DNA of 17,823 bases from the NCBI RefSeq assembly GCF_934307085.1, contig NZ_CAKRCF010000053.1, forward strand, positions 1 to 17,823, read 5' to 3'. This DNA comes from an uncultured Anaerobutyricum sp. (GTDB taxonomy: Bacteria > Bacillota > Clostridia > Lachnospirales > Lachnospiraceae). Both the position numbers and the translations under genes were made by a program. This document shows, piece after piece, positions 1,386-17,467 of this stretch (position 1 is the stretch's first letter; the number at the start of each line of letters is the position of its first letter). Under the pieces are notes generated by a model. It was not told the DNA's origin and did not search any database. It was given only the letters and a program-made list of their open reading frames with translations.

Positions 1386-1394
1386 GACTGCCTC

Positions 1395-1886
1395 CTAAAT
1401 AATCCCGTTACGTTTCTGCATTGCTTTTACAAGACCACCTGCATTGATAATATCCATCAGGTTATCTGGAAGTGGATGAATTGGATAAGTTTTTCCTTCA
1501 AATTCTAAAGACTCTCCCATATTCACGGTAAGACTATCTCCCTCTTTGATAACGTTCTGAATATCACTGTTCTCAATAAGTAAAAGTCCGTTATTAATGG
1601 AGTTTCTGAAAAAAATACGGGCATAGGACTTTGCGATAACGCACTTTACCTTCAATGCCTTAATAATTTCCGGAGCCTGTTCTCTTGATGAACCACATCC
1701 AAAGTTCTTTCCAGCAACAATAATGTCACCTTCCTGAATCTGACTTGCCAGTTCCGGTCTTAATGGTGAAAAACCATACTGTTTCATATCTTCAACGGTA
1801 GGAAGTGCCAAATATTCTGTTGGGATAATGATATCGGTATCAATATCATCCCCTAACACCCATACCTTTCCGGTAAATTGTTCCAT
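1395..1886 (-). CDS. LeuD/DmdB-family hydro-lyase small subunit (second pair)
   Basis: This 163-aa protein is the swivelling small subunit that completes the active site of the large subunit encoded just downstream. Visible features are DDIDTDIIIP (13-22), [10 protein letters not shown] (63-72) and ARIFFRNSINNG (89-100), all hallmarks of the aconitase C-terminal domain family. The specificity loop after the DTD motif reads YLAL (25-28). From what is known of archaeal homoaconitase and isopropylmalate isomerase, an Arg in this loop goes with a substrate carrying an extra carboxylate. The hydrophobic loop here therefore suggests an alkyl-substituted malate-type substrate; this is inference. The start has an AGAGG site 7 nt upstream. 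It sits 66 bp after the large subunit of the first pair, an AT-rich gap with no convincing promoter, so read-through is likely. The gene could be leuD, but with two pairs present I do not assign the symbol. Confidence 0.9.
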   Translation of the reverse strand: MEQFTGKVWVLGDDIDTDIIIPTEYLALPTVEDMKQYGFSPLRPELASQIQEGDIIVAGKNFGCGSSREQAPEIIKALKVKCVIAKSYARIFFRNSINNGLLLIENSDIQNVIKEGDSLTVNMGESLEFEGKTYPIHPLPDNLMDIINAGGLVKAMQKRNGII

Positions 1887-1952
1887 AGTAATACCTCTTT
1901 CTGTTGCTTTTATAATATAGAATTATTATATATTCATGATAATTTTTAATCT

Positions 1953-3206: not shown

Positions 3207-3208
3207 GA

Positions 3209-3685
3209 TTACTCTTCCTCCTTATTTAAAGATGCAATTAATCCTCCAGCATTCAGAATATTCTGCATATATTCTGGAAGCTTTGTACAGGAAAATACCT
3301 GTCCATCAACAGTTACTGTACCAGCAGATAAGTCAAGGTCTGCCTGTCCGCCATCTTCAACATGTTCATATAAATCCTTACATACAATAACAGGGAGTCC
3401 AATATTGATAGAATTACGATAAAAAATTCTGGCAAAGGACTTAGCGATTACCGCTTTAATTCCAAGAGCTTTTAAAACACTTGGAGCCTGTTCTCTTGAA
3501 GAACCACATCCAAAGTTTTCACCAGCAACAATTAAATCTCCTGGCTGTGCTTTCTTAGCAAACTCAGGATCTAAAGACTCAAAAGTGTACTGTTTCATTG
3601 CTTCAATATCTGGTAAAAGCAAATACTGAGAAGCAATAATCTGGTCAGTATCCACATCATTATGGAACTTCCATACTTTATTCAT
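3209..3685 (-). CDS. LeuD/DmdB-family hydro-lyase small subunit (first pair)
   Basis: This 158-aa protein is the small subunit paired with the large subunit 2 bp downstream. It shows [17 protein letters not shown] (9-25), [10 protein letters not shown] (59-68) and [12 protein letters not shown] (85-96). The specificity loop is YLLL (21-24), hydrophobic like the YLAL of the other pair. IIAS stands where the second pair has IIIP. I chose the ATG at 3685 because GGAGG lies 8 nt upstream of it; a longer reading from a TTG at 3700 would put the ribosome site inside the gene. It is the first gene of a four-gene unit with a likely promoter just upstream (3719-3747). The convergent small gene at 4104-4283 separates it from the decarboxylase genes, so the two blocks need not share a transcript. 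Confidence 0.9.
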
Positions 3686-3718
3686 AAATATTACCTCCAA
3701 TAAAATGTTCTACCTATT

Positions 3719-3747
3719 AGAATACTACAAATTAAAAATGAAGTCCA
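3719..3747 (-). promoter_or_regulatory. Likely sigma-A promoter of the hydro-lyase operon
   Basis: On the minus strand TGGACT is followed after 17 nt by TATTCT. Each hexamer matches the consensus at four of six positions. Initiation near 3712 would give a short leader of about 27 nt before the ATG at 3685. The DNA upstream (3748-3914) is AT-rich and holds no gene I can support. Confidence 0.4.
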
Positions 3748-3914
3748 GAAAATTAGTATTTCTGTACAATTTATAATAATTTCCCATAAAGATATAAGAT
3801 TCGCCGTTTTAATTTTGCATATTTATTAAAAGTTCTCCTCACCGAATCGCTTCCAGAATTTACAAAAAGAAAATGAATGTACTAAAAATAGTGCATTTTT
3901 CTTTTCTTTTTCTC

Positions 3915-3943
3915 TTGCTTTTTTTCAATATTTCATATACAAT
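3915..3943 (+). promoter_or_regulatory. Likely sigma-A promoter for the structured leader and DUF4250-type gene
   Basis: TTGCTT, a 17-nt spacer and TACAAT lie on the plus strand. Initiation near 3950 would give a leader of about 154 nt before the small gene at 4104, unusually long for a 59-codon gene. Confidence 0.5.
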
Positions 3944-3951
3944 CTAAACAT

Positions 3952-4069
3952 AAGTTAGATAATGTAATTCTAATTTTAAAGAGATGCCCTCCTCTGCTGG
4001 TTCTTTGGTATTTATTTTTTATAGCATATGAGGCATCTCTTTTTTGTATGTTAAAACACACGCTAACTT
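3952..4069 (+). promoter_or_regulatory. Structured leader with intrinsic-terminator-like hairpin
   Basis: Inside the leader of the DUF4250-type gene, AAAGAGATGCC (3978-3988) pairs perfectly over 11 bp with GGCATCTCTTT (4032-4042) and runs into a T tract ending at 4045. The loop of about 43 nt is long for a plain terminator. A second pairing can form outside it: AAGTTAG (3952-3958) with CTAACTT (4063-4069), which would enclose the whole hairpin. RNA from the promoter at 3915-3943 could therefore stop near 4045 as a transcript of about 95 nt, or read on into the gene. It may be an attenuator, an unrecognised riboswitch, or a small RNA with its own terminator. I matched it to no known RNA family. 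Confidence 0.45.
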
Positions 4070-4103
4070 TATCTCCGAACAGTTACTTAGAAAGGACAAA
4101 AAT

Positions 4104-4283
4104 ATGAATCAATTACCACAAGATCCAATAATGCTCTATAGTATTATCAATACAAAATTACGTGATTTTTATTCGTCATTAGAAGTATTATGTGAAGATA
4201 TGAATGTTGACAAAGAAGAGTTAAAAGAAAAATTAGCAACTGTTGGTTTTGAATATAATGAAGATCAGAATCAATTCGTATAA
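4104..4283 (+). CDS. DUF4250-type small protein
   Basis: This 59-aa protein of unknown function starts MNQLPQDPIMLYSIINTKLR and ends EYNEDQNQFV. The opening pattern (LPxDPxMLxSxxNTKLRDFY), the Leu-rich acidic helix and the C-terminal NQFV match my memory of the DUF4250 family of small Clostridia proteins; this recall was not checked by search. It has no signal peptide or membrane segment, so it is probably cytoplasmic, with predicted helices at about 11-30 and 34-46. I chose the ATG at 4104 because AAAGGA lies 7 nt upstream; an in-frame ATG at 4044 lacks a ribosome site and falls in the terminator's T tract. It is the only plus-strand gene among minus-strand enzymes and ends 5 bp from the convergent lpdD-like stop. 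No function should be inferred from the neighbours. Confidence 0.75.
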   Translation: MNQLPQDPIMLYSIINTKLRDFYSSLEVLCEDMNVDKEELKEKLATVGFEYNEDQNQFV

Positions 4284-4288
4284 AACTT

Positions 4289-4669
4289 TTATTTTTTCAA
4301 ACTTTCCAGAATCTCTCCTCCTATTTCATTCACCACTTGAAGCACTTCTTTTATCTGCTCTTTTGTCATATTATCTATATGAAATCCACCGGTACACACA
4401 ACAACCGTGCCTAAATTACTACTTATCTTCTCTGCTAACTGGCGGCAAAGATATTCATCTTTATGTCCGGTAAGATTTAAAACGGATGCCGTTGCACTCC
4501 TGCTACCATCTCCCGTTAGAGATAACCGTGGCACTGCTTGAACAACGCATCCTACATGCGGCTTTGTCCCCCCTTCTAAGCAAAGCAAAATATCATTCCC
4601 AATCCTGCTAACACCAACTTCAATAAACTGTTCTGCAACCTGTCTTTTCTCTTTTAATATCCACTCCAT
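4289..4669 (-). CDS. LpdD-like subunit of a UbiD-type decarboxylase
   Basis: This 126-aa protein resembles the small third component found with UbiD/UbiX-type hydroxyarylic-acid decarboxylases, such as LpdD of the Lactobacillus gallate decarboxylase; the family has been described as prenylated-flavin chaperone-like. Features that fit are GGTKPHVG (33-40), SATASV (58-63), GHKDE (68-72) and GGFHIDNMT (94-102), followed by an amphipathic C-terminal helix. No signal peptide or membrane segment is present, so it should act in the cytoplasm, presumably helping load or keep prenyl-FMN in the UbiD subunit; that role is inference. A GGAG site lies 7 nt before the ATG. It follows ubiX by 138 bp and ends 5 bp from the convergent small gene. 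Having all three components together strongly supports a dedicated decarboxylase rather than a ubiquinone-pathway enzyme. Confidence 0.75.
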   Translation of the reverse strand: MEWILKEKRQVAEQFIEVGVSRIGNDILLCLEGGTKPHVGCVVQAVPRLSLTGDGSRSATASVLNLTGHKDEYLCRQLAEKISSNLGTVVVCTGGFHIDNMTKEQIKEVLQVVNEIGGEILESLKK

Positions 4670-4695
4670 CTTGTTTCTCCACCCATTAATACTTT

Positions 4696-4711
4696 GCCAA
4701 TAACAATTGGC
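4696..4711 (-). other. Short perfect hairpin in the ubiX-lpdD gap
   Basis: GCCAAT and ATTGGC form a perfect 6-bp stem with a 4-nt loop, 27 nt before the lpdD-like start. No T tract follows, so it is not a standard terminator. It could be an mRNA processing or stability structure. Confidence 0.3.
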
Positions 4712-4807
4712 TGCTTCTATTCTTCGTGCATTTCTGTAAACTTCCCACTATCTAATGCCACTGGAATTACGATAACTTTATTTCTAATCTTCTGTTCTTT
4801 CCTATTC

Positions 4808-5377
4808 TTATAAGCCTTCCCATCTTCTATATTCTTTTGCTTCTATTCCAAACGGTTCGAGCAACTTTGCTGCAATATGGTATGTCATTTCTTCAATACT
4901 TTTCGGCATATGATAAAATGTCAGCATCGGCGGTATAATTCGTACTCCCGGTATCATTGCTAACTCCTGAAGATTACGTAAATGAATGGCACTAAGCGGA
5001 GTTTCTCTTGCTGCTAATACAAGCGGTCTTTGTTCTTTGATTGTTACATCTGCTGCTCTTAACACCAAATTCTCTGCATATCCGCTATGAATTCCAGCAA
5101 TCGTTTTCATACTACATGGTACAATTACCATCCCTTCTGTTTTAAAGGAACCACTTGCCGGACCCGCACCAATCTCACTCTGATCAAGAACATAATCTGC
5201 TAAAGATTCTACTTCTTCTACTTTTAACTCCGTTTCATGTTCTAATGTCAGCTTGGCACTTTCTGTCATGATTAAATAAGATTCAAATTCTTCCTGCTCT
5301 TTTATTAACTTAAGACATTGAATCAATATTGGTAATCCGCTTGCACCTGTCACGCCTACAATAATCCTTTTTTTCAC
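4808..5377 (-). CDS. ubiX: UbiX-like flavin prenyltransferase
   Basis: This 189-aa protein should attach a dimethylallyl group to reduced FMN to make prenyl-FMN, the cofactor of UbiD-type decarboxylases. Family motifs are GVTGASG (8-14, flavin phosphate binding), PASGSFKT (73-80), VPCSMKT (86-92), NLVLRAADV (103-111) and ARETPLS (123-129). Length is typical. It starts with GTG at 5377, preceded by AAGGAGG at 8 nt; the next Met is residue 37, which would remove the flavin-binding motif. Its position between the UbiD-type and LpdD-type genes matches the lpdB/bsdB role, supplying cofactor to the neighbouring decarboxylase. The 377-bp gap from ubiD is occupied mainly by a palindromic repeat, so ubiX may have its own promoter, but I see no convincing one. 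Confidence 0.9.
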   Translation of the reverse strand: MKKRIIVGVTGASGLPILIQCLKLIKEQEEFESYLIMTESAKLTLEHETELKVEEVESLADYVLDQSEIGAGPASGSFKTEGMVIVPCSMKTIAGIHSGYAENLVLRAADVTIKEQRPLVLAARETPLSAIHLRNLQELAMIPGVRIIPPMLTFYHMPKSIEEMTYHIAAKLLEPFGIEAKEYRRWEGL

Positions 5378-5455
5378 TTCACTTCCCTCCTTTTTATCTT
5401 TCTATTTGTAAAATATCTTATAACCATATTAGTTCTCTTAGATATTAAGTCTCTT

Positions 5456-5611
5456 AAAGCGTGTTTGAAAAATTCTTTCTGCAAGATATGCTTTACAATT
5501 TGTGGCGATTTTATCTGAAGGGGCTTAACGAGTTAGGTCAACTAAATGAAGGCAAAATCTCCTGCAAATTGGGACGTGCATCTTGTAGAAATGATTTTTC
5601 AAACACGCTCT
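5456..5611. repeat. MITE-like palindromic repeat, copy A
   Basis: This 156-bp element has near-perfect ends (AAAGCGTGTTTGAAAAAT and its complement ATTTTTCAAACACGCTCT) bounded by TA. Most of the interior is also inverted, so single strands could fold into one long hairpin. Copy B at 7355-7516 is roughly three-quarters identical by eye and lies in the same orientation. It encodes no transposase, which fits a non-autonomous element moved in trans. It fills the gap between ubiD and ubiX. The remaining 142 bp (5612-5753) are AT-rich, with only a 4-bp hairpin right after the ubiD stop. Confidence 0.8.
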
Positions 5612-5753
5612 AAACATAAATTTCTCTAACCTATCACCATTTTGTATAGATCAAAGTTTCTTATCTTAACATAAAAAATAATTAAATCTAAGGGACTCTT
5701 TTTCTTATCTTCTATTATCTTTTAAATCATTTTATTAAAAGTGATGCTGCATC

Positions 5754-7214
5754 TTAAAGCCAGTGGTTTGGATCCACTTCCATAAATCTCGCTCTTACAA
5801 AGCGATGCTTCTGGTCATAAGGAACCGTACAGTCAAAAATAGTCTTACATGCAATTCCATGATCACGAATACTATTAGAACAAGTCGGATCATTAGAAGG
5901 ATCCAATGGATGACATCTGACACCCGGAATAGTGATGATATCGGCATCACCCTGAAAACGGGTATTCATCGCCCACAAAACATCATTCATATCAAAACAG
6001 TCCACATCTTCATCCACTAAAAAAACATGTTTTAACTCACTAAATGCAGAAAATGCAAGAAGGGCTGCCTGTCTTTGTCTTCCTTCATCACTTGCGGTCA
6101 GTTTCTTAAATTGAAGAACTGCCATATACTTTCCACCACCTGCAGAGCTACAGTACACATTCTGCAGTCTCCCTGGCATTGCTTTCTCTACCATTCCATA
6201 AATACTTGCTTCGGTAGGAATTCCTGCCATAGATACATGTTCTTCACTAGGTCCAATACAAGTCTGCATAATTGGATTCTCTCTATGGGTTACAGCTGTT
6301 ACCTTAATCATCCAACACTGGCTACTTGCTGGTCCTGTATATCCTGGAAACTCCGGCATCGCATAACCTGTATTGCTATTCTTATCTTCTTGCACACGTA
6401 CGCCCGGAATTACTTCTCCCTCAATAACATACTCTGCATTTGCAATCGCCATCTCGTCCACTGTCAGGCATTTACAAAGCTCAACTGGTTCCTTTCTCAA
6501 TGCTCCTGCTACTGATAACTCGTCATAACCAAGTGGTGTTGTCGGCGGCTCAAAACAAGAACCTATCTCAATCGCCGGATCCACACCAATACTAATAGAA
6601 ATCGGCAGCTTCTGTCCAAGTTCTTCTGCACGTTCTGCCATTGCCCCAATATGTCTTGCACCTGGTGTAAAGAAAATAGATAACTCATCCTTTCCCTGAA
6701 TACAAAGTCGATGAATCGTTACATCATGTACCCCTGTATCCGGATGTGTAGCATAGCACATTCCAAGTGTAATATACGGACCAGCATCATCTGGTGTATT
6801 AGTTGAAGCTGGAACTAAATCATATAAATTAAAATCAGAATCCTCTGCCTTATGTACTACCTGCTGACATGGTGCTGCTCCTTTATATTCCACTGGTGGA
6901 ATTGGATTAGCAACACTACTGTAAAGTGTCTTTCCTAAATCTTCCGGTTTACAATCTAATAATGCAGCCACTCTCTTTCTGCTTGCCAACACCCCGATTG
7001 CTACCTTTGCATCTGGATGTCCTTTCACATTATTAAATATCATAGCAGGTCCTTCCTTAGTCGGGCGTTTAACTGTTCCACCTGCTCCCACATAGCGGTA
7101 AACTCCTGCTAATTCTGCCATTGGGTCTACTTCTACATCTGTTTCTACATACTGACCTGGCATATTCTTCAATCGTTCTAATGCACTTCTTAAATCTCTT
7201 ACCTTATCTGCCAT
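5754..7214 (-). CDS. UbiD-family non-oxidative hydroxyarylic-acid decarboxylase, catalytic subunit (LpdC/BsdC-like)
   Basis: This 486-aa protein is a prenyl-FMN-dependent decarboxylase. Its length and motifs match the subunit C group (gallate, 4-hydroxybenzoate or vanillate decarboxylases) better than ubiquinone-pathway UbiD. Visible are HDVTIHRLCI (163-172), FFTPGARHIG (181-190), EYVIEGEVIPGVR (261-273) with its conserved glutamates, and the C-terminal VDEDVDCFDMNDVLWAMNTR (400-419). It should be cytoplasmic and oligomeric, using cofactor from the adjacent UbiX. The start follows AAGGAG by 6 nt. The substrate cannot be predicted: a phenolic acid from diet or host is plausible in a gut anaerobe, but UbiD relatives also act on non-aromatic alkenoic acids, which would fit the hydro-lyase pairs downstream. 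The promoter region holds an 18-bp palindrome, suggesting substrate-responsive control. The gene is flanked on both sides by the same palindromic repeat family. Confidence 0.9.
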   Translation of the reverse strand: MADKVRDLRSALERLKNMPGQYVETDVEVDPMAELAGVYRYVGAGGTVKRPTKEGPAMIFNNVKGHPDAKVAIGVLASRKRVAALLDCKPEDLGKTLYSSVANPIPPVEYKGAAPCQQVVHKAEDSDFNLYDLVPASTNTPDDAGPYITLGMCYATHPDTGVHDVTIHRLCIQGKDELSIFFTPGARHIGAMAERAEELGQKLPISISIGVDPAIEIGSCFEPPTTPLGYDELSVAGALRKEPVELCKCLTVDEMAIANAEYVIEGEVIPGVRVQEDKNSNTGYAMPEFPGYTGPASSQCWMIKVTAVTHRENPIMQTCIGPSEEHVSMAGIPTEASIYGMVEKAMPGRLQNVYCSSAGGGKYMAVLQFKKLTASDEGRQRQAALLAFSAFSELKHVFLVDEDVDCFDMNDVLWAMNTRFQGDADIITIPGVRCHPLDPSNDPTCSNSIRDHGIACKTIFDCTVPYDQKHRFVRARFMEVDPNHWL

Positions 7215-7230
7215 TATTTTCTCCTTTTTA

Positions 7231-7269
7231 GCTTATTTATGTAGTATAGCTTTAAATAAGCTTATTTAA
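7231..7269 (-). promoter_or_regulatory. ubiD promoter region with perfect palindromic operator candidate
   Basis: A perfect 18-bp palindrome, TTAAATAAGCTTATTTAA, lies at 7252-7269. It ends 3 nt upstream of a likely -10 (TATACT on the minus strand, 7243-7248), so it covers the spacer and -35 position. The half-site AAATAAGC recurs at 7231-7238, near the expected transcript start. No good -35 is visible, as expected for a regulated promoter. This layout suits a dimeric repressor or activator, but none is encoded in the window. Confidence 0.5.
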
Positions 7270-7354
7270 CTTATATCACTTTATAACGCAGCTCCTACCT
7301 CCGAAGTGGAAGTCTTCCTACTGGAAGAGGATAAAATAATATAGTTATTCTCCT

Positions 7355-7516
7355 AGAGCGTGTTTGAAAAATGCTTTCTGCAAGATGTGCGTTACAATTT
7401 GCGGGAGATTTCGCCTGAATGAGGGCGGCGTAGCGGGCTACGTCAACTGAATGAAGGCAAAATATACCGCAAATTGGGGCGTGCAGGTTGCAGGAATGAT
7501 TTTTCAAACACGCTCT
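7355..7516. repeat. MITE-like palindromic repeat, copy B
   Basis: This 162-bp element begins AGAGCGTGTTTGAAAAAT and ends with the inverted complement, flanked by TA on both sides. Its arms are inverted repeats almost throughout, closing with a GC-rich apical stem (CGTAGC and GCTACG) near the centre. It starts 5 bp after the stop of the DUF6472-type gene and lies upstream of ubiD, so it may also act as a terminator or RNA-stability hairpin. The DNA between it and the ubiD promoter (7270-7354) contains short GGAAG/CTTCC inverted motifs but no gene. Confidence 0.85.
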
Positions 7517-7521
7517 AGTAT

Positions 7522-7698
7522 CTACATCTGCTTCCTTACTATCTTATACTCATCATCCATCTGGAAATATGGGCAACTATCTGAAGATCCAGACAACATT
7601 CTTGCCAAATCATCTTCATCTAAATTCACCTGGCACTCTCCTGTACCATCTTCCTCATCAATCCAGTAATATGTGCACAAATCACACTGACTTGCCAT
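7522..7698 (-). CDS. DUF6472-type Cys-rich small protein
   Basis: This 58-aa protein of unknown function starts MASQCDLCTYYWIDEEDGTG and ends in DDEYKIVRKQM. Cys5, Cys8, Cys22 and Cys42 form a CxxC plus two single cysteines, consistent with binding zinc or another metal. Sequence and size match my memory of the DUF6472 family of Clostridia, not verified by search. I chose the ATG at 7698 because AAGGAG lies just upstream; an upstream in-frame ATG at 7764 would place the promoter and ribosome site inside the gene. The gene is transcribed away from the Ppx/GppA gene, has its own likely promoter, and runs into palindromic repeat copy B 5 bp after its stop. The acidic middle and lack of signal peptide suggest a cytoplasmic protein. 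Confidence 0.75.
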   Translation of the reverse strand: MASQCDLCTYYWIDEEDGTGECQVNLDEDDLARMLSGSSDSCPYFQMDDEYKIVRKQM

Positions 7699-7735
7699 AA
7701 CTCTCCTTCTCTCTTTCTGTAAAATTCTTACATTT

Positions 7736-7764
7736 ATCTTATCATATCCTCTTTTATATTTCAA
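7736..7764 (-). promoter_or_regulatory. Likely sigma-A promoter of the DUF6472-type gene
   Basis: TTGAAA, a 17-nt spacer and TAAGAT lie on the minus strand, about 37 nt before the ATG at 7698. Confidence 0.55.
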
Positions 7765-7872
7765 TATCTTTTACAGAAAATTGACTTATATTTCTTTCTT
7801 TTTTTACCAATACTTGTTATTATAATAATATTATTAGTATTTTTGAAATAAATTTTTCAGGAGGTTTTACTT

Positions 7873-8796
7873 ATGAAATGTGCTATTGTCGATTTAGGTT
7901 CTAATACCATTCGTCTATCCCTCTATAATACATTGGAGAATGGTGGATTTGAAACTTTATTCTCTAAAAAATATATGGCTGGACTTGCCGGATATGTTTC
8001 TCACGGAATCATGTCTAATGACGGAATTAATCAGGCCTGTGCGGTACTTCTTGATTTTAAAATTCTTTTGCAACAGCTTGGAATCAACGAAATGCACGTA
8101 TTTGCTACCGCTTCCCTCCGTAATATTAAAAATACTGAAAAAGCCCTGGAAGCAATCAAGCGAAGAACCGGTCTTTCTGTTGACATAATCTCCGGCAGTG
8201 ATGAAGGTATCCTCGGCTATTATGGTGCTTTATACACAACAGATTTAAAAAATGGAATCATGTTTGATATCGGCGGCGGAAGTACAGAATTTGTTCGTGT
8301 TAAAAATGGAAAAGTCAAAAAATCACAGAGTATTTCTATTGGTTCCCTGAATCTCTTCCACAACAATGTTTTCGGTCTGTGGCCAGATAAAAAAGAACAG
8401 AAAACCATTACAAAACGAATTAAAAAACGTCTTAATGAAGTAGAATTTCCTAAAAAAACCCCTGAAAAGGTCTGCTGTATTGGTGGTACATGCCGTGCGA
8501 TTTTAAATATCGTAAATTATCATTTTAACAAACAGGAAAATAATCGAATTATCACCAAAGAAGAGTTCGATAAGATTTTAAAAATATTGACAAAGCGTGA
8601 TAAAACTTCTCGCAACTACATTTTAAAGTTATGCCCAGACCGTGTACACACAATTATTCCTGGTATGCTTGTTGTAAAAGAAATTATGGAACAGCTGGGC
8701 TGTGAACAATTATGGGTATCCCGTTACGGTGTACGTGAAGGATATCTTTGTAAGAACTTTCTTATGACAGGTTCTACACAGGAAATTGCAGAATAA
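7873..8796 (+). CDS. Ppx/GppA-family phosphatase, short form
   Basis: This 307-aa protein belongs to the actin-fold (ASKHA) exopolyphosphatase/guanosine-pentaphosphatase family. The first phosphate-binding loop is DLGSNTIRLSLY (7-18), followed by ATASLRN (78-84), SGSDEG (107-112) with the predicted catalytic Glu111, and the second loop DIGGGSTEF (132-140). Only the two N-terminal domains are present; the C-terminal helical domain of long Ppx enzymes (about 500 aa) is absent, as in many Firmicute homologues. It probably hydrolyses polyphosphate ends or pppGpp in the cytoplasm; the sequence does not separate these. The start is clear: AGGAGG 8 nt before the ATG. It diverges from the DUF6472-type gene across 174 bp that includes a 14-bp AT-rich palindrome at 7823-7836. 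A separate promoter drives the next gene. Confidence 0.9.
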   Translation: MKCAIVDLGSNTIRLSLYNTLENGGFETLFSKKYMAGLAGYVSHGIMSNDGINQACAVLLDFKILLQQLGINEMHVFATASLRNIKNTEKALEAIKRRTGLSVDIISGSDEGILGYYGALYTTDLKNGIMFDIGGGSTEFVRVKNGKVKKSQSISIGSLNLFHNNVFGLWPDKKEQKTITKRIKKRLNEVEFPKKTPEKVCCIGGTCRAILNIVNYHFNKQENNRIITKEEFDKILKILTKRDKTSRNYILKLCPDRVHTIIPGMLVVKEIMEQLGCEQLWVSRYGVREGYLCKNFLMTGSTQEIAE

Positions 8797-9264: not shown

Positions 9265-10611
9265 TTATGCGCAGTGTCCTTTTTTCTCAATGACTTCAAT
9301 TACGGAATCAACATACTTCTCGCATTCTTCCTTTGTTTCTGCCTCAACCATAACACGAATTACTGGCTCTGTACCACTCTCACGAACAAGGATTCTTCCT
9401 GTTGCTCCAAGTGATTCTGCAACCTGATTTACTGCTGCCTGGACATCAGCATCGTTTTGTGCTTCTGGCTTACTCTTTACGCGTACATTCTTAAGTACCT
9501 GTGGATAAATATGTACTGGAGATGTCAGAGTTGCTAAAGAAGACTTTTTCTCTAACATAACTTCCATCATCTTAATTGCAGTAAGGATTCCATCTCCTGT
9601 TGTTGCATATTTACTAAAGATGATATGTCCGGACTGTTCTCCACCAATGCGGTGTCCATTCTTTACCATATTTTCGTAAACGTATTTATCGCCAACCTTT
9701 GTTTTTTCATAATCAATGCCAAGTTCATCAAATGCCTTGTAAAGTCCGAAGTTTGACATGATTGTTGTTACTACCGTGTTATTACGAAGTTCCCCTTTTT
9801 CTTTGAGATAACGTCCGTAAACATATAAAATTAAATCTCCATCGACAATATTACCATTCTCATCAACTGCAATACAGCGATCGGCATCTCCGTCAAAAGC
9901 GAATCCTACATCAAGCTGATTCTCTTTTACAAACTTCTGAAGTACTTCAATATGTGTAGAACCTGCATTCATATTGATATTTAATCCATCTGGCTCTGCA
10001 TTAATAACATATGTCTTTGCCCCTAATGCATCAAAAACGCTCTTTGCAATCATCCATGAGCTTCCATTAGCACAGTCAAGTCCAACCTTTATGTTCTTAT
10101 ATGAACGTGTTGCAAGAGAAATCAAATAGCCTATGTAACGATTTCTTCCAGCAGAGTAATCTACTGTACATCCAATCTGATCTCTTACTGCTATTGGAAC
10201 TTCAATCTTTCCATCAATATAATCCTCAACTTTAAGAATGGTTTCTTCATCCATCTTCTCGCCTTTGGAATTAATGAGCTTGATTCCATTATCATAGTAT
10301 GGGTTATGACTTGCAGAAATCATAATTCCACAGTCAAAGTCTTCTGATCTTACAACATAAGATACACTTGGTGTTGTTGTTACATGTAACAGATACACAT
10401 CAGCACCAGAAGCAGTTAAACCTGCTACTAAAGAGTACTCAAACATATAGCTTGAACGGCGTGTATCCTTTCCGATTACTACCTTACATTTTCCTTCTTT
10501 ATCTTTGCTATAATACCATCCAAGAAAACGTCCAACCTGATATGCATGTTCTACGGTTAAATCTACATTAGCTTCTCCACGGAAACCATCTGTTCCAAAA
10601 TATTTACCCAT
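9265..10611 (-). CDS. glmM: Phosphoglucosamine mutase
   Basis: This 448-aa enzyme converts glucosamine-6-phosphate to glucosamine-1-phosphate on the route to UDP-GlcNAc, and so feeds peptidoglycan synthesis in the cytoplasm. All four signature elements of the phosphohexomutase family are present: the phosphoserine loop ISASHNPYYDNGIK with active Ser101 and GlmM-type residues around it, the Mg-binding DGDADR (240-245), the sugar-binding GGEQSGH (323-329), and the phosphate-binding RESGTEPVIR (410-419). Length is typical. The start MGKYFGTDGFRGEAN follows AGGAG by 7 nt. It lies 175 bp downstream of the exporter operon on the same strand. The gap contains a 25-bp repeat remnant and an inverted repeat (TGGAATG and CATTCCA, 10688-10720). 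I saw no clear promoter and no glmS-type ribozyme. Confidence 0.97.
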   Translation of the reverse strand: MGKYFGTDGFRGEANVDLTVEHAYQVGRFLGWYYSKDKEGKCKVVIGKDTRRSSYMFEYSLVAGLTASGADVYLLHVTTTPSVSYVVRSEDFDCGIMISASHNPYYDNGIKLINSKGEKMDEETILKVEDYIDGKIEVPIAVRDQIGCTVDYSAGRNRYIGYLISLATRSYKNIKVGLDCANGSSWMIAKSVFDALGAKTYVINAEPDGLNINMNAGSTHIEVLQKFVKENQLDVGFAFDGDADRCIAVDENGNIVDGDLILYVYGRYLKEKGELRNNTVVTTIMSNFGLYKAFDELGIDYEKTKVGDKYVYENMVKNGHRIGGEQSGHIIFSKYATTGDGILTAIKMMEVMLEKKSSLATLTSPVHIYPQVLKNVRVKSKPEAQNDADVQAAVNQVAESLGATGRILVRESGTEPVIRVMVEAETKEECEKYVDSVIEVIEKKGHCA

Positions 10612-10786: not shown

Positions 10787-12043
10787 CTATTCATGGCGTA
10801 ATGCAACGATTGGATCTAAGTTCGCAGCTTTTACTGCCGGTAACAATCCAAACACAACACCAATAACTGTAGAAAACGCAATAGCAAGAATTACTGCTGG
10901 TATACTGATTGCAATTGGAACATTCGATATCTTTCCAATAATTTCTGCTAATGCAATTCCGGTAATCGTTCCAATAATACCACCTAAACTGGTAAGTACC
11001 GCTGCCTCTGTTAAGAACTGTGCAAGTATTCGATTCTTTCTCGCACCAATCGCTTTTTTCAGACCAATTTCTCTTGTACGTTCTGTCACAGATACAAGCA
11101 TAATATTCATAACACCAATGCCCCCAACCAGCAGTGAAATACTTGCGATCCAGATTAACTGTTTATTCGTTGTCGCACTTACCTGCTGACTTTCTTCTGC
11201 AGTCTCATTCATATTGGCTGCACGATATTTAATACTTTTGCTTGTTACCGTTTCATTTAAAAGCGTCTGTGCATCCTTTCCTACTGATGTCATATTATCT
11301 GTAGAATCTGCCAAAAGCTTAGCATTCTGAGGCTCATCATACTGCTGTACAATATTCCAGTCTACATCAGGAATTACCACAATACCACTGGCACTTCCAT
11401 CATTGTATACATAGGTGTAATAGTCCTCCACAGAATTAATCACAGGACTAAATGCTGTGGACTCTTCAATGACGCCAATTACAATAAATGGTTCTCCTTT
11501 GATATCTATTGTCTTTCCTATCGGATTCGCATCTCCAAAAAGTGCATCTGCAGCCACACTGTCTATTACTGCAACTTTACGATACTTCTCATAATCACTA
11601 TCCGTAAAAGCTCTTCCTCTTTTCATAACATATCCACAGGTTCCAAGATAATGGGAATCTGCTCCGATAAGCTGCCCTCCTGAAAGCGCAGTAGCATTAT
11701 AGTAAATATAATCTACCTGTGAACGGGATACATATAAAGATGCATCTTTTACATGATCAATTTCTGCTAACTGCTGGCGCATATCATCATCAAGAACAGG
11801 AATACCTTTGGGAATTCCATATTCCATTTCTGCTGGATAGTTTCCATCTTCTGTAAGCTGTACCGTCGTTGTATTTGTTCCTGAACCAATCAGGTTCTTC
11901 TTAATCTGTTCATTTGTTCCTTTAATCGTTGATACGATAGCAATAATAGCTGCAATACCGATAATGATACCAAGCATTGTCAAGAAGGAACGCAGCCGGT
12001 GACTCCACACACCCTGAAAAGATAATCTTATATTTTCAAGCAT
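10787..12043 (-). CDS. MacB/YknZ-type ABC transporter permease
   Basis: This 418-aa membrane protein is the permease of a type VII (MacB/LolCE/FtsX) ABC exporter. TM1 lies at about 20-40, an extracytoplasmic MacB-like domain at 41-294, and TM2-TM4 at about 295-318, 344-368 and 379-402. The cytoplasmic coupling segment TERTREIGLKKAIGARK (320-336) and the C-terminal GLLPAVKAANLDPIVALRHE match the family closely. MacB-type proteins do not carry substrate through a membrane channel; they couple ATP hydrolysis in the cytoplasm to movement of the outer domain. It is the last gene of the four-gene operon. The stop of the upstream adaptor overlaps its AGGAGG ribosome site, 7 nt before the ATG, so translation is probably coupled. 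Length is close to that of Bacillus YknZ-type permeases. Confidence 0.95.
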   Translation of the reverse strand: MLENIRLSFQGVWSHRLRSFLTMLGIIIGIAAIIAIVSTIKGTNEQIKKNLIGSGTNTTTVQLTEDGNYPAEMEYGIPKGIPVLDDDMRQQLAEIDHVKDASLYVSRSQVDYIYYNATALSGGQLIGADSHYLGTCGYVMKRGRAFTDSDYEKYRKVAVIDSVAADALFGDANPIGKTIDIKGEPFIVIGVIEESTAFSPVINSVEDYYTYVYNDGSASGIVVIPDVDWNIVQQYDEPQNAKLLADSTDNMTSVGKDAQTLLNETVTSKSIKYRAANMNETAEESQQVSATTNKQLIWIASISLLVGGIGVMNIMLVSVTERTREIGLKKAIGARKNRILAQFLTEAAVLTSLGGIIGTITGIALAEIIGKISNVPIAISIPAVILAIAFSTVIGVVFGLLPAVKAANLDPIVALRHE

Positions 12044-12054
12044 TCTTCTTCCTC

Positions 12055-14874
12055 CTAATAAATCATTTCACTATCGTCTTCGGAAATCTTCGTTTTTACC
12101 CCTTCTCTTAAATTTTTACCATAAGGGAAGGCGATATTATCATCTTCTGTAAGTCCTGAAACAACTTCCATATACTGTCCGCTCATTGTCTTTCCAACAG
12201 TAATATACTGTTTCTTTAATCGCTTTGTCTTTTTATCTCTGATATATACGTAGCTCTTCTTATCTTCGGTACGAATATAAGCTTTTTGGAGATAAATAGC
12301 ATTTTCATTTGCAGTTCCCATAGATTTTGAAGTATAAGAAACTTCTACACTTCCTCCAGGACTCAAACCATCTGCCTTTTTGATAAAAGCTACAACTGGA
12401 TAATAGGAACTATTTGGATTCGATGTTCCTCCATCATCACTGGCATCCGCAGTTGGGAAGTCTGAAATTTCTTTTATTTCTGCAGTATACTCATCTCCTG
12501 TATCACTGGATACGCACTTAATTGTTCCTCCAACCTTTACATTATCAAGCTCCATCTCACTGATAGATGTCTTAACGTACATTCCGTCCGCTGCCTTTAC
12601 AACAATAGCTGCTGAACCATCTGTCGGAATCGTTCCTTTATTACAGGATGTTGTTACTGTTCCTGCAAGTTTTGCTTTTACTGTAGCTTTATCTACTTCA
12701 GATTTTGCTTCATTATAGCTAATCTGTGCCTCATGAAGATCTTCCTTCGCCTGGGCAATCTCATCTTCTTTATCAGAAATCGCCTCTTTTAACTCAGCTG
12801 CTGTATAACTGTTATCATCGCCTCCGTTACCGTCACTATCTGTGCCGCTACCGCCGCTTCCTGAACCTCCTCCGGAACCGCCTCCGCTTCCATTGTCTCC
12901 ATTATCTCCGTTATCACCGGTATCTGCGCCTTTGACAATTAATGTTCTTGAAATCTTATCTTTTGAAATTCCTTTTACACTTGTTACCTGTGCTGTAATT
13001 GTTACAGACGATGATGGTTCACTCTCATCAACATATAACCAAATACCAGACTCTGTTTCTGTAATTGTCGTATCTTTAGAAATATTATCAAGAAGTTTCC
13101 ATGTTACTTTACTTTGATCAATACTCTTTCCATCTTCTGTCACAACAGTAAGCAGACATCCATCTCCTGCCTTTACCTTCTTACGATTCTGTTTAAATTT
13201 AATCTTTTTCTCTGTAGTTGTTGGCTTTGTAGGATCCTTATGCTCTGTAGTTGGCTTAGTTGGGTCATCTTTTTGCACCTTACTCTTTAAGTAAGAAATT
13301 GTATATCCTGTTCCATCCGCCAGTTCTATCGTAAACTTACTTGATGAAGTGATTTCAAGGGTATTTGCATTATTGGTGTTTTCGTTATTGTAATCCTCTT
13401 CTGATGCATACTCAATAAACTCCGCACTGATTCCCTTTTTAATGAGTTCGTTTAATAATGCTCCACTGATTTTTCCACCTTTTTGTAAGTAGAAAATATA
13501 CTTTCCATTTGCATCCTTCTGACCATCTTCTAAACTATCCGCTTTTAAATCCTTGTATGCAGGTCTTACCGCTAAATTACTGATGTCAGATATTTTATAA
13601 GTTCCATCTTTCTCGAGATCAGTAAATACTGTTGATGGATTATATTCATATCTATCTTTTTCTTTTCCATTTTCATCAAATTCAATAAAAGTTGCATACT
13701 TTTTCGAATCGTGTAAAGACTGAATAACAGAACCTTTTACTACTCCATTTACATTTAAATAATAAATATATGCATTTCCTGCTGACTCTCCATTCCCACT
13801 CGAGTCATCTCTATCACTTACTGATTCAATAGAATTATGAATAGTTCTTGTATCTCCACCATCATTCAACTGATTCACTGTATAATAGTCATCTGCGTAA
13901 ACATTCACCTTTGTATCTGGATCAAGTTCAAATGTTGAAAGCGGGCTCTTAGAAGTTTCTGATTTGTATGAACGAAATTCTGCATACTGTCCATCGGAAA
14001 GTAATTGTTTAACAAAAGATCCTTTTACTGTTCCATCTTTAGTCAAATTAAAAATGTAAGGTTCTTCCTTTGTTCCACTTCCTGAGGCTTTATCTCCAAT
14101 ATCATTGATAATTGTCTTTAAAGAAAGCGTAGTCTCTCCCTTATCTTCCGTAGTTGTGCCCGTATTATCTTTATCCTCTGTTGTTGTTCCAGTCTCGTCT
14201 TTTTTCTCGGTTGTTGCACCAGTTTCATCTTTTTTTTCTGTGGTCGAATCTGTCTCGTCTTTTTTTGGTGTTGTCGTTGCTTGTGCCTTGTCCAATGCTG
14301 TCGTTGCTTCGAAACCTTCTTCTGCATTCTGAGTTTTCGCATCAGAATCTGCCACCGTTGTTGCCTCATTACTATCTGCTTCTGCTACAAGATAACTTAA
14401 ACTTGTCCCCTTAATAGCCGAAAGATTCGCAGAAGCATCCATAACACTACTGTTTCCCGTATCTATGGAACCAACCGTCTTAGTATTCTTAAGCTTCTTT
14501 AACTCCTTTTCCATTTCACTGATTTCCAGCTTAGAGGACTGAATCTGAAGTCTCTGGAGCTTTAAATCCAACTCTTTTTCAGAAACATCATACTTTAAAA
14601 GGATGTCACCTTTCTTTACTTTCTCACCCTTTTTTACGTAAACTTTCTTTACTTTCTGTCCACTGTCCACATGAACTTCCTGTATATAATCCGAGGTAAG
14701 AGTTCCCGTAAGAGAAGTATCTGTGTCAAACCAGTCAGAACTGTTCAGCATACTTACCGGGAATACTTTTACTACTGTCTTATTTCTTTTTCTTATGACA
14801 ACAATAGACGTAATGCCAATTGTCATAACAAGAACCAGTACTACAGCAAGCAGTATCTTTTTCTTTCCCTTCAA
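12055..14874 (-). CDS. Membrane-fusion (HlyD/MacA-type) adaptor with a giant insertion at the hairpin tip
   Basis: This 939-aa protein is the extracytoplasmic adaptor of the exporter. TM helix 8-27; first half of the biotinyl-lipoyl domain around 60-96 (GEKVKKGDILLKYD); coiled-coil helix 1 at 97-132; helix 2 at 691-733; second lipoyl half at 734-760; beta-barrel about 765-850; membrane-proximal domain to the end. Ordinary relatives are about 350-550 aa. The excess lies between the two helices (136-690): a Thr/Lys/Glu 10-residue tandem repeat (204-248), three copies of an unrecognised module (272-338, 368-434, 458-531), a Thr/Pro-rich linker, an Ig-like beta segment (557-648) and a Gly/Ser/Asp linker (653-687). 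The start is TTG, with its AAGGAG inside the end of the ATPase gene; the first internal Met is residue 17 and would destroy the TM segment. The tip is where Gram-negative adaptors meet TolC, so the insertion probably faces the cell wall. Confidence 0.9.
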   Translation of the reverse strand: MKGKKKILLAVVLVLVMTIGITSIVVIRKRNKTVVKVFPVSMLNSSDWFDTDTSLTGTLTSDYIQEVHVDSGQKVKKVYVKKGEKVKKGDILLKYDVSEKELDLKLQRLQIQSSKLEISEMEKELKKLKNTKTVGSIDTGNSSVMDASANLSAIKGTSLSYLVAEADSNEATTVADSDAKTQNAEEGFEATTALDKAQATTTPKKDETDSTTEKKDETGATTEKKDETGTTTEDKDNTGTTTEDKGETTLSLKTIINDIGDKASGSGTKEEPYIFNLTKDGTVKGSFVKQLLSDGQYAEFRSYKSETSKSPLSTFELDPDTKVNVYADDYYTVNQLNDGGDTRTIHNSIESVSDRDDSSGNGESAGNAYIYYLNVNGVVKGSVIQSLHDSKKYATFIEFDENGKEKDRYEYNPSTVFTDLEKDGTYKISDISNLAVRPAYKDLKADSLEDGQKDANGKYIFYLQKGGKISGALLNELIKKGISAEFIEYASEEDYNNENTNNANTLEITSSSKFTIELADGTGYTISYLKSKVQKDDPTKPTTEHKDPTKPTTTEKKIKFKQNRKKVKAGDGCLLTVVTEDGKSIDQSKVTWKLLDNISKDTTITETESGIWLYVDESEPSSSVTITAQVTSVKGISKDKISRTLIVKGADTGDNGDNGDNGSGGGSGGGSGSGGSGTDSDGNGGDDNSYTAAELKEAISDKEDEIAQAKEDLHEAQISYNEAKSEVDKATVKAKLAGTVTTSCNKGTIPTDGSAAIVVKAADGMYVKTSISEMELDNVKVGGTIKCVSSDTGDEYTAEIKEISDFPTADASDDGGTSNPNSSYYPVVAFIKKADGLSPGGSVEVSYTSKSMGTANENAIYLQKAYIRTEDKKSYVYIRDKKTKRLKKQYITVGKTMSGQYMEVVSGLTEDDNIAFPYGKNLREGVKTKISEDDSEMIY
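13282..14061 (-). repeat. Three copies of an unrecognised protein module in adaptor 2
   Basis: Modules at residues 272-338, 368-434 and 458-531 each open with YIFxLxxxGxxxGxxxxxL, then (A/T)xF, followed about 20 residues later by a short strand and a Tyr-Thr/Lys-(Val/Ile)-x-x-Leu ending. Examples are PYIFNLTKDGTVKGS, AYIYYLNVNGVVKGS and KYIFYLQKGGKISGA. Spacing is about 90-96 residues. The copies are well diverged from each other, so the triplication is old. I know no named domain that fits. Confidence 0.65.
14131..14265 (-). repeat. 30-bp coding tandem repeat (Thr/Lys/Glu decapeptide)
   Basis: Residues 204-248 of adaptor 2 repeat a ten-residue unit four and a half times: KKDETDSTTE, KKDETGATTE, KKDETGTTTE, DKDNTGTTTE, then DKGETT. 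The unit is a multiple of three, so gain or loss of copies keeps the frame. Such Thr-rich stretches often act as extended spacers in cell-surface proteins. Confidence 0.8.
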
Positions 14875-14875
14875 C

Positions 14876-15661
14876 TCAGATCTCTCCTTCCCATTCTTTT
14901 ACTCCAAAATCCTGCTTTATCTCCGAATATATCGTGTCAGATTCTACCGGAGCCTTCGCTTTGGACTCTTGCTTTTCTTTCTCTTTTCTTTCTTTATCTT
15001 CTACAATCTCTCCATCAAAAATATGAAGTACTTTCTTTGCATGATTCGCAATATTGGCATCATGAGTAATCATAATGATAGTTACACCCTCATCATTTAA
15101 CTGTTTAAACAGATTCATTACCTGAATACCTGACCGGCTATCTAACGCTCCTGTCGGTTCATCCGCAAGAATAATCTTCGGATTATTTACCAACGCTCTT
15201 GCAATCGCTACTCTTTGCTGCTGTCCACCAGAAAGCTGACTTGGACGGAAATGTACTCGTTCAGCCAATCCTACTCTTTTTAATGCCTGAAAAGCAATTT
15301 CCTTTCTTTTTTTTACTGGCACACCCGCATAACTTAACGGAAGTGCTACATTGTCAAGTGCTGTCTGTTTGGGCAGAAGATTAAAACTCTGAAATACAAA
15401 TCCCAAAGTATTTAATCTCAAATCCGACAGGCGGTTCTCATTATAATTCACTATGGATTCTCCTTCTAAAAGGAACTCTCCTTTTGTCGGGCGATCAAGA
15501 CAACCGATAATATTCATCAAGGTTGTCTTTCCAGAACCGGAAGGTCCCATAATCGCTACATACTCTCCCTCATCAATGGAGATATTTACATCTTTAAGAA
15601 CCGGTATAACAATCTTGTCCTGTAAATAATTCTTATAAATATGTTTTAGTTCCAAAAGCAT
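14876..15661 (-). CDS. MacB/LolD-type ABC transporter ATPase
   Basis: This 261-aa cytoplasmic ATPase powers the exporter. All catalytic motifs are intact: Walker [10 protein letters not shown] (39-47), Q-loop Gln91 in [13 protein letters not shown] signature LSGGQQQR (143-150), Walker [13 protein letters not shown] (163-174) and the H-loop His200 in ITHD. The core ends near residue 222 and is followed by a charged tail of about 40 residues, longer than the usual LolD/YknY form of about 225-235 aa. It starts 30 bp after adaptor 1, with AAAGGA 10 nt upstream. Its TGA stop is one base from the TTG start of adaptor 2, and its last codons carry that gene's ribosome site. It should form a homodimer bound to two copies of the permease encoded at 10787-12043. 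Confidence 0.96.
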
Positions 15662-15691: not shown

Positions 15692-17467
15692 TTATTCCCC
15701 AAAGTCCGCAATGTCGCTATCACTTGTCCCGTTGTCATCAGAATCTGAATTATCACTTCCAGAATCTACACTTCCATCAGATGCATCTGCACCATCTGAA
15801 GAATCCATACCATCAGAACCCATCGTCTCTGCACCATCGCTCGTCTGCTCATCTCCATAACCAGATGTACTGTCTTCCGGACTAACCTTTGTAACTTTCA
15901 TACCTTCTTTTAATGTACTGTCATCACAAGCAATATAGTCACTTGTCTTAAGACCATCCTTTACTTCGTATTCATCAAGGTTTTCGTCATATTCACCTAC
16001 TGTAATTTCATGAAGTTTTAACTTGTTATGAGAATCAAGCCACACATAATATTTATTATTATCCTTTTTGATATAAGCGGATGGAAGCCACATACCATCT
16101 TTGTGCTCATCCTGGCCATTATCCTGTTCTATCAGAACATGCTGTCCCATCATCAGACCATTATCATCATCTAACTTCACATAGAAATTATATTTAGATG
16201 CAGTTTCACCTGAAGTACTTCCATCATCTGTATAGCTATCTGAATCTGAACTTCCATCACTGCTGTCGTCTGCTGTTGTATCCGTCTTAATACTGCTGAT
16301 TGTTCCCTTCCATGTCTGGGAGTCATCAACTCTTGAACGAACAATGACAGGATCTCCTTCATTAAGGCTCCATACATTCGTCTCACTGACTGTTCCTTTG
16401 ATTCGGTAATTACCTACTGCAAGGATTGTCATGTAAGAAGAATCATCGGAACTTCCATCTCCAGAATCAACAGAGCCATCATCGGAACTGTCATCGGAAG
16501 AAGAATTCTCTAATGAAGCATTTACCTTCTTTACAAGACCATTCATCTTACTCTTTACAGTGGCATCTTTAATGTTTTTGTCCAGTGTCTTAATCGTCTC
16601 TTTATTGGACTTGATTGTATACTGATCTTTCTTAATCGTTGTCTGCGCCGTTAAAATCTGGGTTTGAAGCTGAATCTTCTCACTGGCACTTGCTGACTTC
16701 AGATCAGACTGATAAGACTTAATATCTTTTGTCAGCTGATTAATCTCGTTCTGCAGTGTCTCCTGCTCTAACTGCTTCTTTTCTTTAGAAAGCTTTAACT
16801 CCTGTGTATTATACTTAAAAAGCTTATCGCCTTTCTTTACCTGATCTCCTACATTAACATAACGCTTCTCTACAGACATGTCTGACTGTAATGTAATCTT
16901 CCATGACTTCTCCGCATCAACTGTTCCTGTATAACGATTGTTCGCACCGGCTGCTGTTCCAAGTCCTGTAATTTCACGAACAGACTCAACGTAAGCCTTT
17001 CCTTCACTTGTTCCACCCATATTTCGAATCACAAAAAAAACAACAGCTATCACTATGACTGCTGCCGTACCACAGATGAGCGCCAGCTTCTTTTTGGAGA
17101 ACTTCTTCTTTTCCGGCTCCTGTAAAATAATTGCATCATCATCACTTAACAGGCTGTCCTGCTCGTTTGTGCTGCCTTCAAGAATCTCTGTCTTACCTGA
17201 TTCTTCTTCCGCATCTTTCTTCTTACGATGGAAAAATCCTCTCTTTTTCTTTGGCTTCTCTTCTTCCTGTAACTCTTCTAATTCTTTATCGTATTCATCA
17301 TCTAAGAAATCACTGTCATCATCGATATATCCCATATCGTCTTCATACAGATTAATCTCCTGCTTCTTTTTCCTGTGAAAAAATCCTTTTTTCTCTTCAT
17401 TTTCATTCGTGGATGAATCTATATTTGTTTCATCCATAAATTCCTGCCCATTCTTCTTACGAAACAT
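15692..17467 (-). CDS. Membrane-fusion (HlyD/MacA-type) adaptor with charged cytoplasmic N-terminus
   Basis: This 591-aa protein is the first gene of the exporter operon. It has a cytoplasmic region of about 125 residues, one TM helix (about 128-148), a lipoyl half (about 188-220, GDQVKKGDKLFKYN), a coiled-coil hairpin (221-302), the second lipoyl half (303-350), a beta-barrel and a C-terminal domain. Three features are unusual. The cytoplasmic part repeats GFFHRKKK (28-35 and 77-84) between strongly acidic stretches. Ser/Asp-rich loops interrupt the outer part (322-344, 398-421). The last 60 residues are an acidic Ser/Asp/Gly tail. The start follows AAGGAGG by 5 nt. A second adaptor in the same operon is uncommon; the two may pair with one permease as a mixed ring or serve different steps. 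The hairpin here is uninterrupted, unlike that of adaptor 2. Confidence 0.9.
   Translation of the reverse strand: MFRKKNGQEFMDETNIDSSTNENEEKKGFFHRKKKQEINLYEDDMGYIDDDSDFLDDEYDKELEELQEEEKPKKKRGFFHRKKKDAEEESGKTEILEGSTNEQDSLLSDDDAIILQEPEKKKFSKKKLALICGTAAVIVIAVVFFVIRNMGGTSEGKAYVESVREITGLGTAAGANNRYTGTVDAEKSWKITLQSDMSVEKRYVNVGDQVKKGDKLFKYNTQELKLSKEKKQLEQETLQNEINQLTKDIKSYQSDLKSASASEKIQLQTQILTAQTTIKKDQYTIKSNKETIKTLDKNIKDATVKSKMNGLVKKVNASLENSSSDDSSDDGSVDSGDGSSDDSSYMTILAVGNYRIKGTVSETNVWSLNEGDPVIVRSRVDDSQTWKGTISSIKTDTTADDSSDGSSDSDSYTDDGSTSGETASKYNFYVKLDDDNGLMMGQHVLIEQDNGQDEHKDGMWLPSAYIKKDNNKYYVWLDSHNKLKLHEITVGEYDENLDEYEVKDGLKTSDYIACDDSTLKEGMKVTKVSPEDSTSGYGDEQTSDGAETMGSDGMDSSDGADASDGSVDSGSDNSDSDDNGTSDSDIADFGE

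Follow-up and report, generated by a model that had tools for sequence, protein, structure and literature searches.

MacB-type ATP-binding cassette (ABC) pumps are described in a review as taking substrate at the outer face of the membrane and driving it, with a bellows motion, through a hexameric adaptor (PMC5985334). The same review states that the tips of Gram-negative MacA adaptors mesh with TolC and that the purified adaptor YknX binds peptidoglycan, and it leaves open what such adaptors do in cells that lack an outer membrane (PMC5985334). Excerpts on Gram-positive bacteria report that MacB-type pumps protect against peptides (PMC5985334, PMC8277102) and that, in Streptococcus pneumoniae, Spr0693 forms a hexameric nanotube across the inner zone of the wall (PMC5768738). 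We analyzed a 17,823-nucleotide contig (NZ_CAKRCF010000053.1; hereafter the window), whose DNA is Anaerobutyricum-like Lachnospiraceae. Its minus strand carries a four-gene unit encoding two adaptors of the MacA/YknX type, an ATPase and a permease. The second adaptor (adaptor2) contains a 558-residue insert at the tip of its coiled-coil hairpin, and inserts of this class occur family-wide and share one module, usually in operons that pair adaptor2 with an insert-free adaptor1. At the sequence level, we document the architecture, position, recurrence, near-exclusivity in our samples and selection of this insert. The four genes are as follows (aa, amino acids).

15692..17467, minus strand: adaptor1, 591 aa, MacA/YknX-type adaptor without tip insert (sequence, family profiles)
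14876..15661, minus strand: ABC ATPase, MacB/LolD-type, 261 aa (family profile matches)
12055..14874, minus strand: adaptor2, 939 aa, MacA/YknX-type adaptor with tip insert (MacA 4dk0, 5xu0 and TIGR01730 matches)
10787..12043, minus strand: permease, MacB/FtsX-type, 418 aa, with MacB_PCD and FtsX (family profile matches)

An earlier note on this DNA had proposed an insert at the hairpin tip of an ABC-exporter adaptor, at residues 136-690 (exactly 12805-14469), and our analysis confirms it. Comparison with relatives places it at residues 134-691. The phmmer match to MacA (4dk0) is split into adaptor2 residues 55-108 and 696-915. A family profile (A3) aligns with Spr0693 (5xu0) in two stretches flanking the tip (expectation value, E, 3.3e-19). 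TIGR01730 also matches in two stretches (E 4.6e-20), one of them residues 697-928, with a score of 71.8 bits that is below the cut-off of 94.9. Relatives of adaptor2 carry PF25990/PF25984 in precomputed Pfam annotation, which we take to be YknX domains. Adaptor2 has the N-terminal anchor, the two lipoyl halves flanking a hairpin, the barrel and the membrane-proximal parts of a MacA/YknX-type adaptor, in agreement with the MacA/HlyD-type assignment of the note, and is encoded with a MacB-type ATPase and permease. The core parts and the insert are located as follows.

14794..14856, minus strand: N-terminal transmembrane anchor, ~residues 7-27 (hydrophobic stretch in the sequence)
14587..14706, minus strand: first lipoyl half, ~residues 57-96 (Biotin_lipoyl_2 at 72-96, below cut-off; MacA alignment)
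14476..14583, minus strand: hairpin helix 1, residues 98-133 (relatives' alignment, covariation)
12802..14475, minus strand: tip insert, residues 134-691, 558 aa (comparison with relatives)
12688..12804, minus strand: hairpin helix 2, residues 691-729 (covariation, heptad moment)
12058..12687, minus strand: second lipoyl half, beta-barrel and membrane-proximal part, residues 730-939 (TIGR01730 stretch, 4dk0 alignment)

The insert can be called a tip insert only if the segments on its two sides pair with each other. Covariation was computed from 373 sequences, 365 of them with both halves aligned and 161 remaining after 90%-identity filtering (effective sequence number 101). The strongest core coupling lies between helices 1 and 2 (z 11), and pairs linking these helices account for five of the top 20 core couplings (0.5 expected). 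Seventeen of the top 20 helix-helix couplings lie inside one antiparallel band 10 positions wide (permutation P=2e-4, the smallest value reachable with 5000 permutations, in a test devised after a line-average statistic had failed and with the coupling list already seen, so that P should be read accordingly). The top eight include seven in the band (P=0.0018), the top 12, 20 and 30 all give P 2e-4, and parallel bands are not enriched (P 0.43-0.996). The line-average statistic itself was not significant (152 of 1000 permutations), which counts against the pairing. The heptad moment stands out for helix 2 of adaptor2 (P 0.015) and of adaptor1 (P 0.046), and is not distinct for helix 1 of either protein (P 0.69 and 0.22, respectively). 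Insert-poor orthologues with -22 (L101), 43 (L070) and 58 aa (L102 and L106) between the core halves are plain adaptors in the same operon order. At the level of sequence, the covariation supports one antiparallel hairpin formed by the helices flanking the insert, and the reading of the note passes the refutation test that the note had set for it.

A chimera of two genes, or an assembly artefact, was considered and rejected. Adaptor2 is matched by 603 proteins (894-951 aa among the 120 matches listed), and close relatives share the layout on other contigs. Anaerobutyricum hallii DSM 3353 has the same gene with the same operon neighbours in the same order.

The insert is built from a spacer, repeated modules, a further domain-like segment and a linker.

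14125..14376, minus strand: Thr/Ser-rich variable spacer, residues 167-250 (sequence, relatives, A. hallii comparison)
14167-14265: 30-bp tandem repeat inside the Thr-rich spacer, 3.3 copies (repeat detection)
13837..14088, minus strand: tip module copy 1, ~residues 263-346 (profile match 263-329, E 2e-17)
13555..13785, minus strand: tip module copy 2, ~residues 364-440 (profile match 364-408, E 4e-4)
13267..13512, minus strand: tip module copy 3, ~residues 455-536 (profile match 459-487, E 3e-3)
12925..13215, minus strand: Ig-like segment, residues 554-650 (weak Big_1, below cut-off)
12805..12924, minus strand: Gly/Ser/Asp linker, residues 651-690, length-variable among relatives (sequence)

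The note had listed a Thr-rich repeat, three unknown modules, an Ig-like segment and a Gly/Ser linker. The repeat was recovered, and the modules are present as parts; the three are, in our hands, diverged copies of one ~75-aa module. Their pairwise scores are 68, 79 and 75 against shuffle means of ~28 and maxima of 53-58, and none of 1000 shuffles reached any of the three. The Ig-like label depends entirely on a Big_1 match of the isolated segment, at 14.8 bits against a cut-off of 34.9 (E 0.031), and stands as a weak assignment. At an E limit of 10, where the HMMER filters drop most matches above 0.1, the window insert gave no Pfam family. A known-domain identity for the module was also rejected, since neither Pfam nor PDB sequences name anything: 22 module copies gave single weak Pfam matches (best EstA_Ig_like, E 0.0015, in one of the 22), and the best hit of a profile search against PDB sequences had E 0.47.

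One motif recurred in the inserts of relatives that we read. We built a module profile from 13 seeds and iterated it on 76 adaptor2 proteins (L044 and L068 being incomplete). Its consensus over 78 positions is:

KSKPYKGSGTKEDPYRFLCTEDAVITGSFLNKLAGKDKEGKYAVLEVREGDKVKGKLLKAWELDGTKELEEVDPDSKW

The profile matches 58 of the 76 proteins of this profile-building set, 48 with one match, seven with two and three with three (the window, A. hallii and L083); in L049 and L097 the two matches are halves of one interrupted copy. With the profile held fixed, we tested held-out adaptor2 proteins from 25 further genomes, and 21 of 24 have the module. The remaining locus (L216) reads the adaptor and the ATPase in a single frame, which gives a module match too; this 888-aa frame (5566-8232) is a natural fusion or a sequencing error. 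Overall, 79 of 100 adaptor2 proteins contain the module. Apart from the module, the inserts consist mostly of low-complexity spacer. A few contain other domains, namely three Big_2 in place of the module in L060 (E 3.7e-16) and Cna_B in L072 (E 1.5e-10), both of the stalk type, and Flg_new in one further relative.

The module is nearly exclusive to this adaptor in the samples searched. Among the open reading frames of the same loci that were not labelled adaptor2, it occurs in two of 1411 and one of 493, which are a weakly scoring adaptor2 (L109), a split adaptor2 (L068) and the fused L216. The L068 gene is split, in one genome, into open frames of 283 and 324 aa (4906-6689) with the module in the first part. 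In 150 family genomes, 37 module places were found, 34 in labelled adaptor2 proteins, two in the L109 and L068 frames and one in a gene that reads as a serpin, so that 36 of the 37 belong to this adaptor. The serpin-reading gene (L170, genome G049) has a 24-residue likeness to the module, which looks like chance. All 12 module places in 295 genomes of the order are in adaptor2. A relaxed search of 12 genomes gave four matches outside adaptor2 (E 0.4-2.3), two of which are by eye a beta-helix-type protein with a similar GNGTKEMP start motif and FtsH.

Inserts at the same position are widespread among Lachnospiraceae adaptors and variable in length. Since the genome searches scored two to four candidates per genome, their counts are lower bounds: at least 79 of 299 family genomes match a window-based adaptor profile at 1e-5, and at least 105 of 397 match a broader one at 1e-20. 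In a phylum sample of 299 genomes, matches at 1e-20 came from G001, G181 and G492 only, and the G492 locus has one adaptor, an ATPase and a permease. A match is not always adaptor2: among the 79 matching genomes, L107 and L108 have no protein that could be labelled adaptor2 and L103 is cut by a contig end. In 98 copies, the length between the aligned core halves ranges from -22 to 750 aa (median 245.5), and the module is present in 79 of 90 inserts of at least 110 aa and in none of the eight shorter ones. The largest adaptor2 (L034, 6261-9863, 1200 aa) has long ETEAPAETPE and SSEEE tip repeats and a segment that is pilin-like by eye, with no Pfam match.

The gene order adaptor1-ATPase-adaptor2-permease is kept in 92 of 107 loci, made up of 70 from a set of 80 sequences and 22 from another 27 loci, in a sample that was collected through adaptor2 profiles and is silent on loci that lost adaptor2. 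The exceptions among the 80 include contig ends (L044, L090, L096 and L103), and the five among the 27 are the fused L216, L219 and L229 (each without one labelled gene), L233 (a second locus of G205) and G492. The insert is confined to adaptor2, and adaptor1 of the same operons takes none. Its hairpin segment is 81 aa in the window, and over 73 loci is 81-82 aa in the 5-95% range (full range 71-91). Adaptor1 begins with a cytoplasmic extension of ~120 residues in which a GFFHRKKK motif is repeated, and its C-terminal tail is acidic and rich in Ser and Asp; most family members align only from ~residue 115-155 onward.

Selection differs along the insert. We estimated the ratio of nonsynonymous to synonymous substitution rates (dN/dS) from one species pair, the window and A. 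hallii, with high dS, so that the values are rough. The core gives 0.047 (N part) and 0.034 (C part), module 1 0.173, module 2 0.074 and the Ig-like segment 0.124; in module 3, dN is 0.063 and dS is saturated. The spacers are higher, at 0.31 for the stretch preceding the Thr spacer, 0.52 for the Thr spacer and 0.23 for two other linkers. The Thr spacer is the part most different from A. hallii (22% identity), and in 13 close relatives the folded insert parts keep their length and the spacers vary. Purifying selection is stronger on the modules and the Ig-like segment than on the spacers, and the folded parts are not mere filler.

The earlier note had suggested that the insert could bind peptidoglycan or another surface partner, or build its own conduit. 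We consider the chances about even that the four genes encode a MacB-type (mechanotransmission) export pump of Lachnospiraceae in which the adaptor2 tip, without TolC, docks the tube end to a wall or surface partner. The adaptors would form a hexameric tube on the permease dimer. Substrate would be taken up from the outside face of the membrane and then pushed up the tube; by analogy with YknXYZ and Spr0693-0695, amphiphiles such as antimicrobial peptides are candidates. Spacers that vary in length between species would hold out the tip modules, which would dock the open end of the tube to a wall component or surface partner and may thereby do, in a one-membrane cell, the positioning job of TolC docking elsewhere. 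The insert sits at the docking site, has the spacer-module-Ig build of a projecting surface element and occurs in one adaptor of two. Anchoring, or positioning, of the tube mouth in the wall is the simplest reading. The note's premise that no TolC is present largely held: no TolC-family (OEP) match was found in A. hallii or in five of six other carriers, and the same search gave matches in seven of 14 control genomes.

Several points weigh against docking at the wall as the function of the module. In the sixth carrier (G180), a 1375-aa frame gives one partial OEP match that narrowly exceeds the cut-off (23.5 bits, cut-off 22). Window copies 2 and 3 fit the module profile partially and weakly. 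The module is not indispensable, because 21 of 100 adaptor2 proteins give no match, some of which (e.g., L047) look by eye like missed diverged copies. A scan of 59 of the 76 adaptor2 proteins found no LysM, SH3, SLH, CW or other known wall-binding Pfam domain. Gram-positive surface proteins commonly have acidic, Pro/Thr-rich spacers. A shared hexamer of adaptor1 and adaptor2 would be conjecture: covariation between the two in 93 pairs gives 62 couplings over z 4 against 3-11 when permuted, concentrated on a few hub columns and hence uninformative. Protein distances are correlated across 69 operons (r 0.66-0.75), a co-inheritance signal that common descent by itself would produce.

A stronger form of wall docking is possible, although less likely than not. 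The operon may represent a new class of exporter, a two-adaptor pump of the MacB type in one-membrane bacteria, with a tube wall of fixed length from one adaptor and a lineage-tuned docking crown, built of a private module, from the other. The crown would replace TolC docking by anchoring the tube mouth in the wall, and the hexamer might be a mixed one, with three of its arms crowned and three plain.

Other functions of the insert were weighed against the same evidence. The acidic modules might capture substrate, binding a cationic peptide or amphiphile for export, or the released product, and feeding or gating it at the tube mouth. Net charge is negative in every one of 73 measured inserts (median -14 per 100 residues), as such capture would have it, although secreted Gram-positive proteins are often acidic. 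The protection against peptides reported in the excerpts on Gram-positive MacB-type pumps (PMC5985334, PMC8277102) points the same way; however, substrate leaves MacAB by the tube mouth and does not enter there, and capture appears unlikely. Alternatively, six (or three) tips could join into a ring or tube, extending the channel across the wall as a substitute for TolC. The location at the docking site, the presence of up to three tandem modules and the near-fixed hairpin length of adaptor1, expected of a shared barrel with a set height, would suit such a conduit, but long low-complexity spacers connect the modules with the hairpin (low-complexity fraction 0.37 in the inserts and 0.16 in the cores, on the same measure), which are ill suited to a rigid, continuous tube. 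We regard the self-built conduit as quite improbable.

The tip, once freed from TolC docking, might also tolerate any insertion, leaving the insert without function. The wide range of insert lengths, the eight copies below 110 aa and the fast divergence of the spacers would fit a permissive loop, but the purifying selection on the folded segments, the module in 79 of 100 copies and the absence of inserts from adaptor1 of the same operons speak against it, and we find it hard to credit. Least convincing is an adaptor that doubles as a surface adhesin with its tip as a stalk with binding domains. The repeat-built spacers resemble wall-spanning stalks and single inserts hold adhesin-type domains (Big_2, Cna_B, Flg_new), but at most three of 59 scanned adaptors show such domains and the common module was not found in other surface proteins of the family and order samples, which makes display very improbable.

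Returning to the locus, adaptor2 starts with TTG one base past the ATPase stop, and an AAGGAG-like site precedes this start. The four operon genes stand alone, because no neighbour gene is common to more than 13 of 80 loci; the largest shared neighbour-gene cluster spans 13 loci, and the window is in none of the 18 largest. Neighbour clustering across the 80 loci gave no conserved gene that would betray the substrate. The next gene downstream, on the same strand at 9265-10611, is glmM (phosphoglucosamine mutase, an enzyme of cell-wall precursor synthesis); it has this place in A. hallii too and is absent from the 18 largest neighbour clusters of other loci. Further along the minus strand (147-7214), two large-small subunit pairs of the homoaconitase/isopropylmalate-dehydratase type sit behind a UbiX prenyltransferase, a 126-aa protein with no NCBIfam match at E 1e-20 and a UbiD-family decarboxylase, which is VdcB/VdcC-like with matches below the cut-offs of those families. 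This cluster probably encodes an acid pathway; three of the four dehydratase genes are visible in A. hallii before the locus ends.

The tip series found here, from nothing to 750 residues at one position, offers a natural handle on the role of adaptors in Gram-positive bacteria. The recurrent module lends itself to expression on its own and to tests for a ligand in the wall or at the surface, and the sister adaptor without insert is an internal control in most operons. The carriers are gut commensals (Anaerobutyricum and other Lachnospiraceae). We found no paper in open-access full text on the tip domain or on a two-adaptor MacB operon in Lachnospiraceae.

Among described systems, MacAB-TolC shares the adaptor, ATPase and permease families, and its MacA (4dk0) aligns with adaptor2; it differs in that the tip docks to TolC, MacB is a fused ATPase and permease, and there is a single adaptor without insert. 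TriABC-OpmH of Pseudomonas aeruginosa shows that the operon of one pump can contain two adaptor genes (PMC8277102), but it is a Gram-negative resistance-nodulation-division pump, and the available passage mentions no tip domain. YknWXYZ of Bacillus is alike as a Gram-positive MacB-type transporter with an adaptor (YknX), an ATPase (YknY), a permease (YknZ) and a membrane protein (YknW), and the available passages report that YknX forms a hexamer and binds peptidoglycan (PMC8277102, PMC5985334). It has one adaptor and YknW in place of the two adaptors here, and those passages describe no tip module. Spr0693-0694-0695 of S. pneumoniae has the same type of ATPase and permease, and its adaptor is the closest solved one by family profile, with both halves aligned. 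According to the part of its description available, the hairpin turn of Spr0693 is an untraced flexible loop (Pro142-Gly163) with no large insert, and the system has one adaptor (PMC5768738). By its testable features, adaptor2 is a member of the MacA/YknX adaptor family, and its tip module and the second adaptor in the operon set it apart from these systems.

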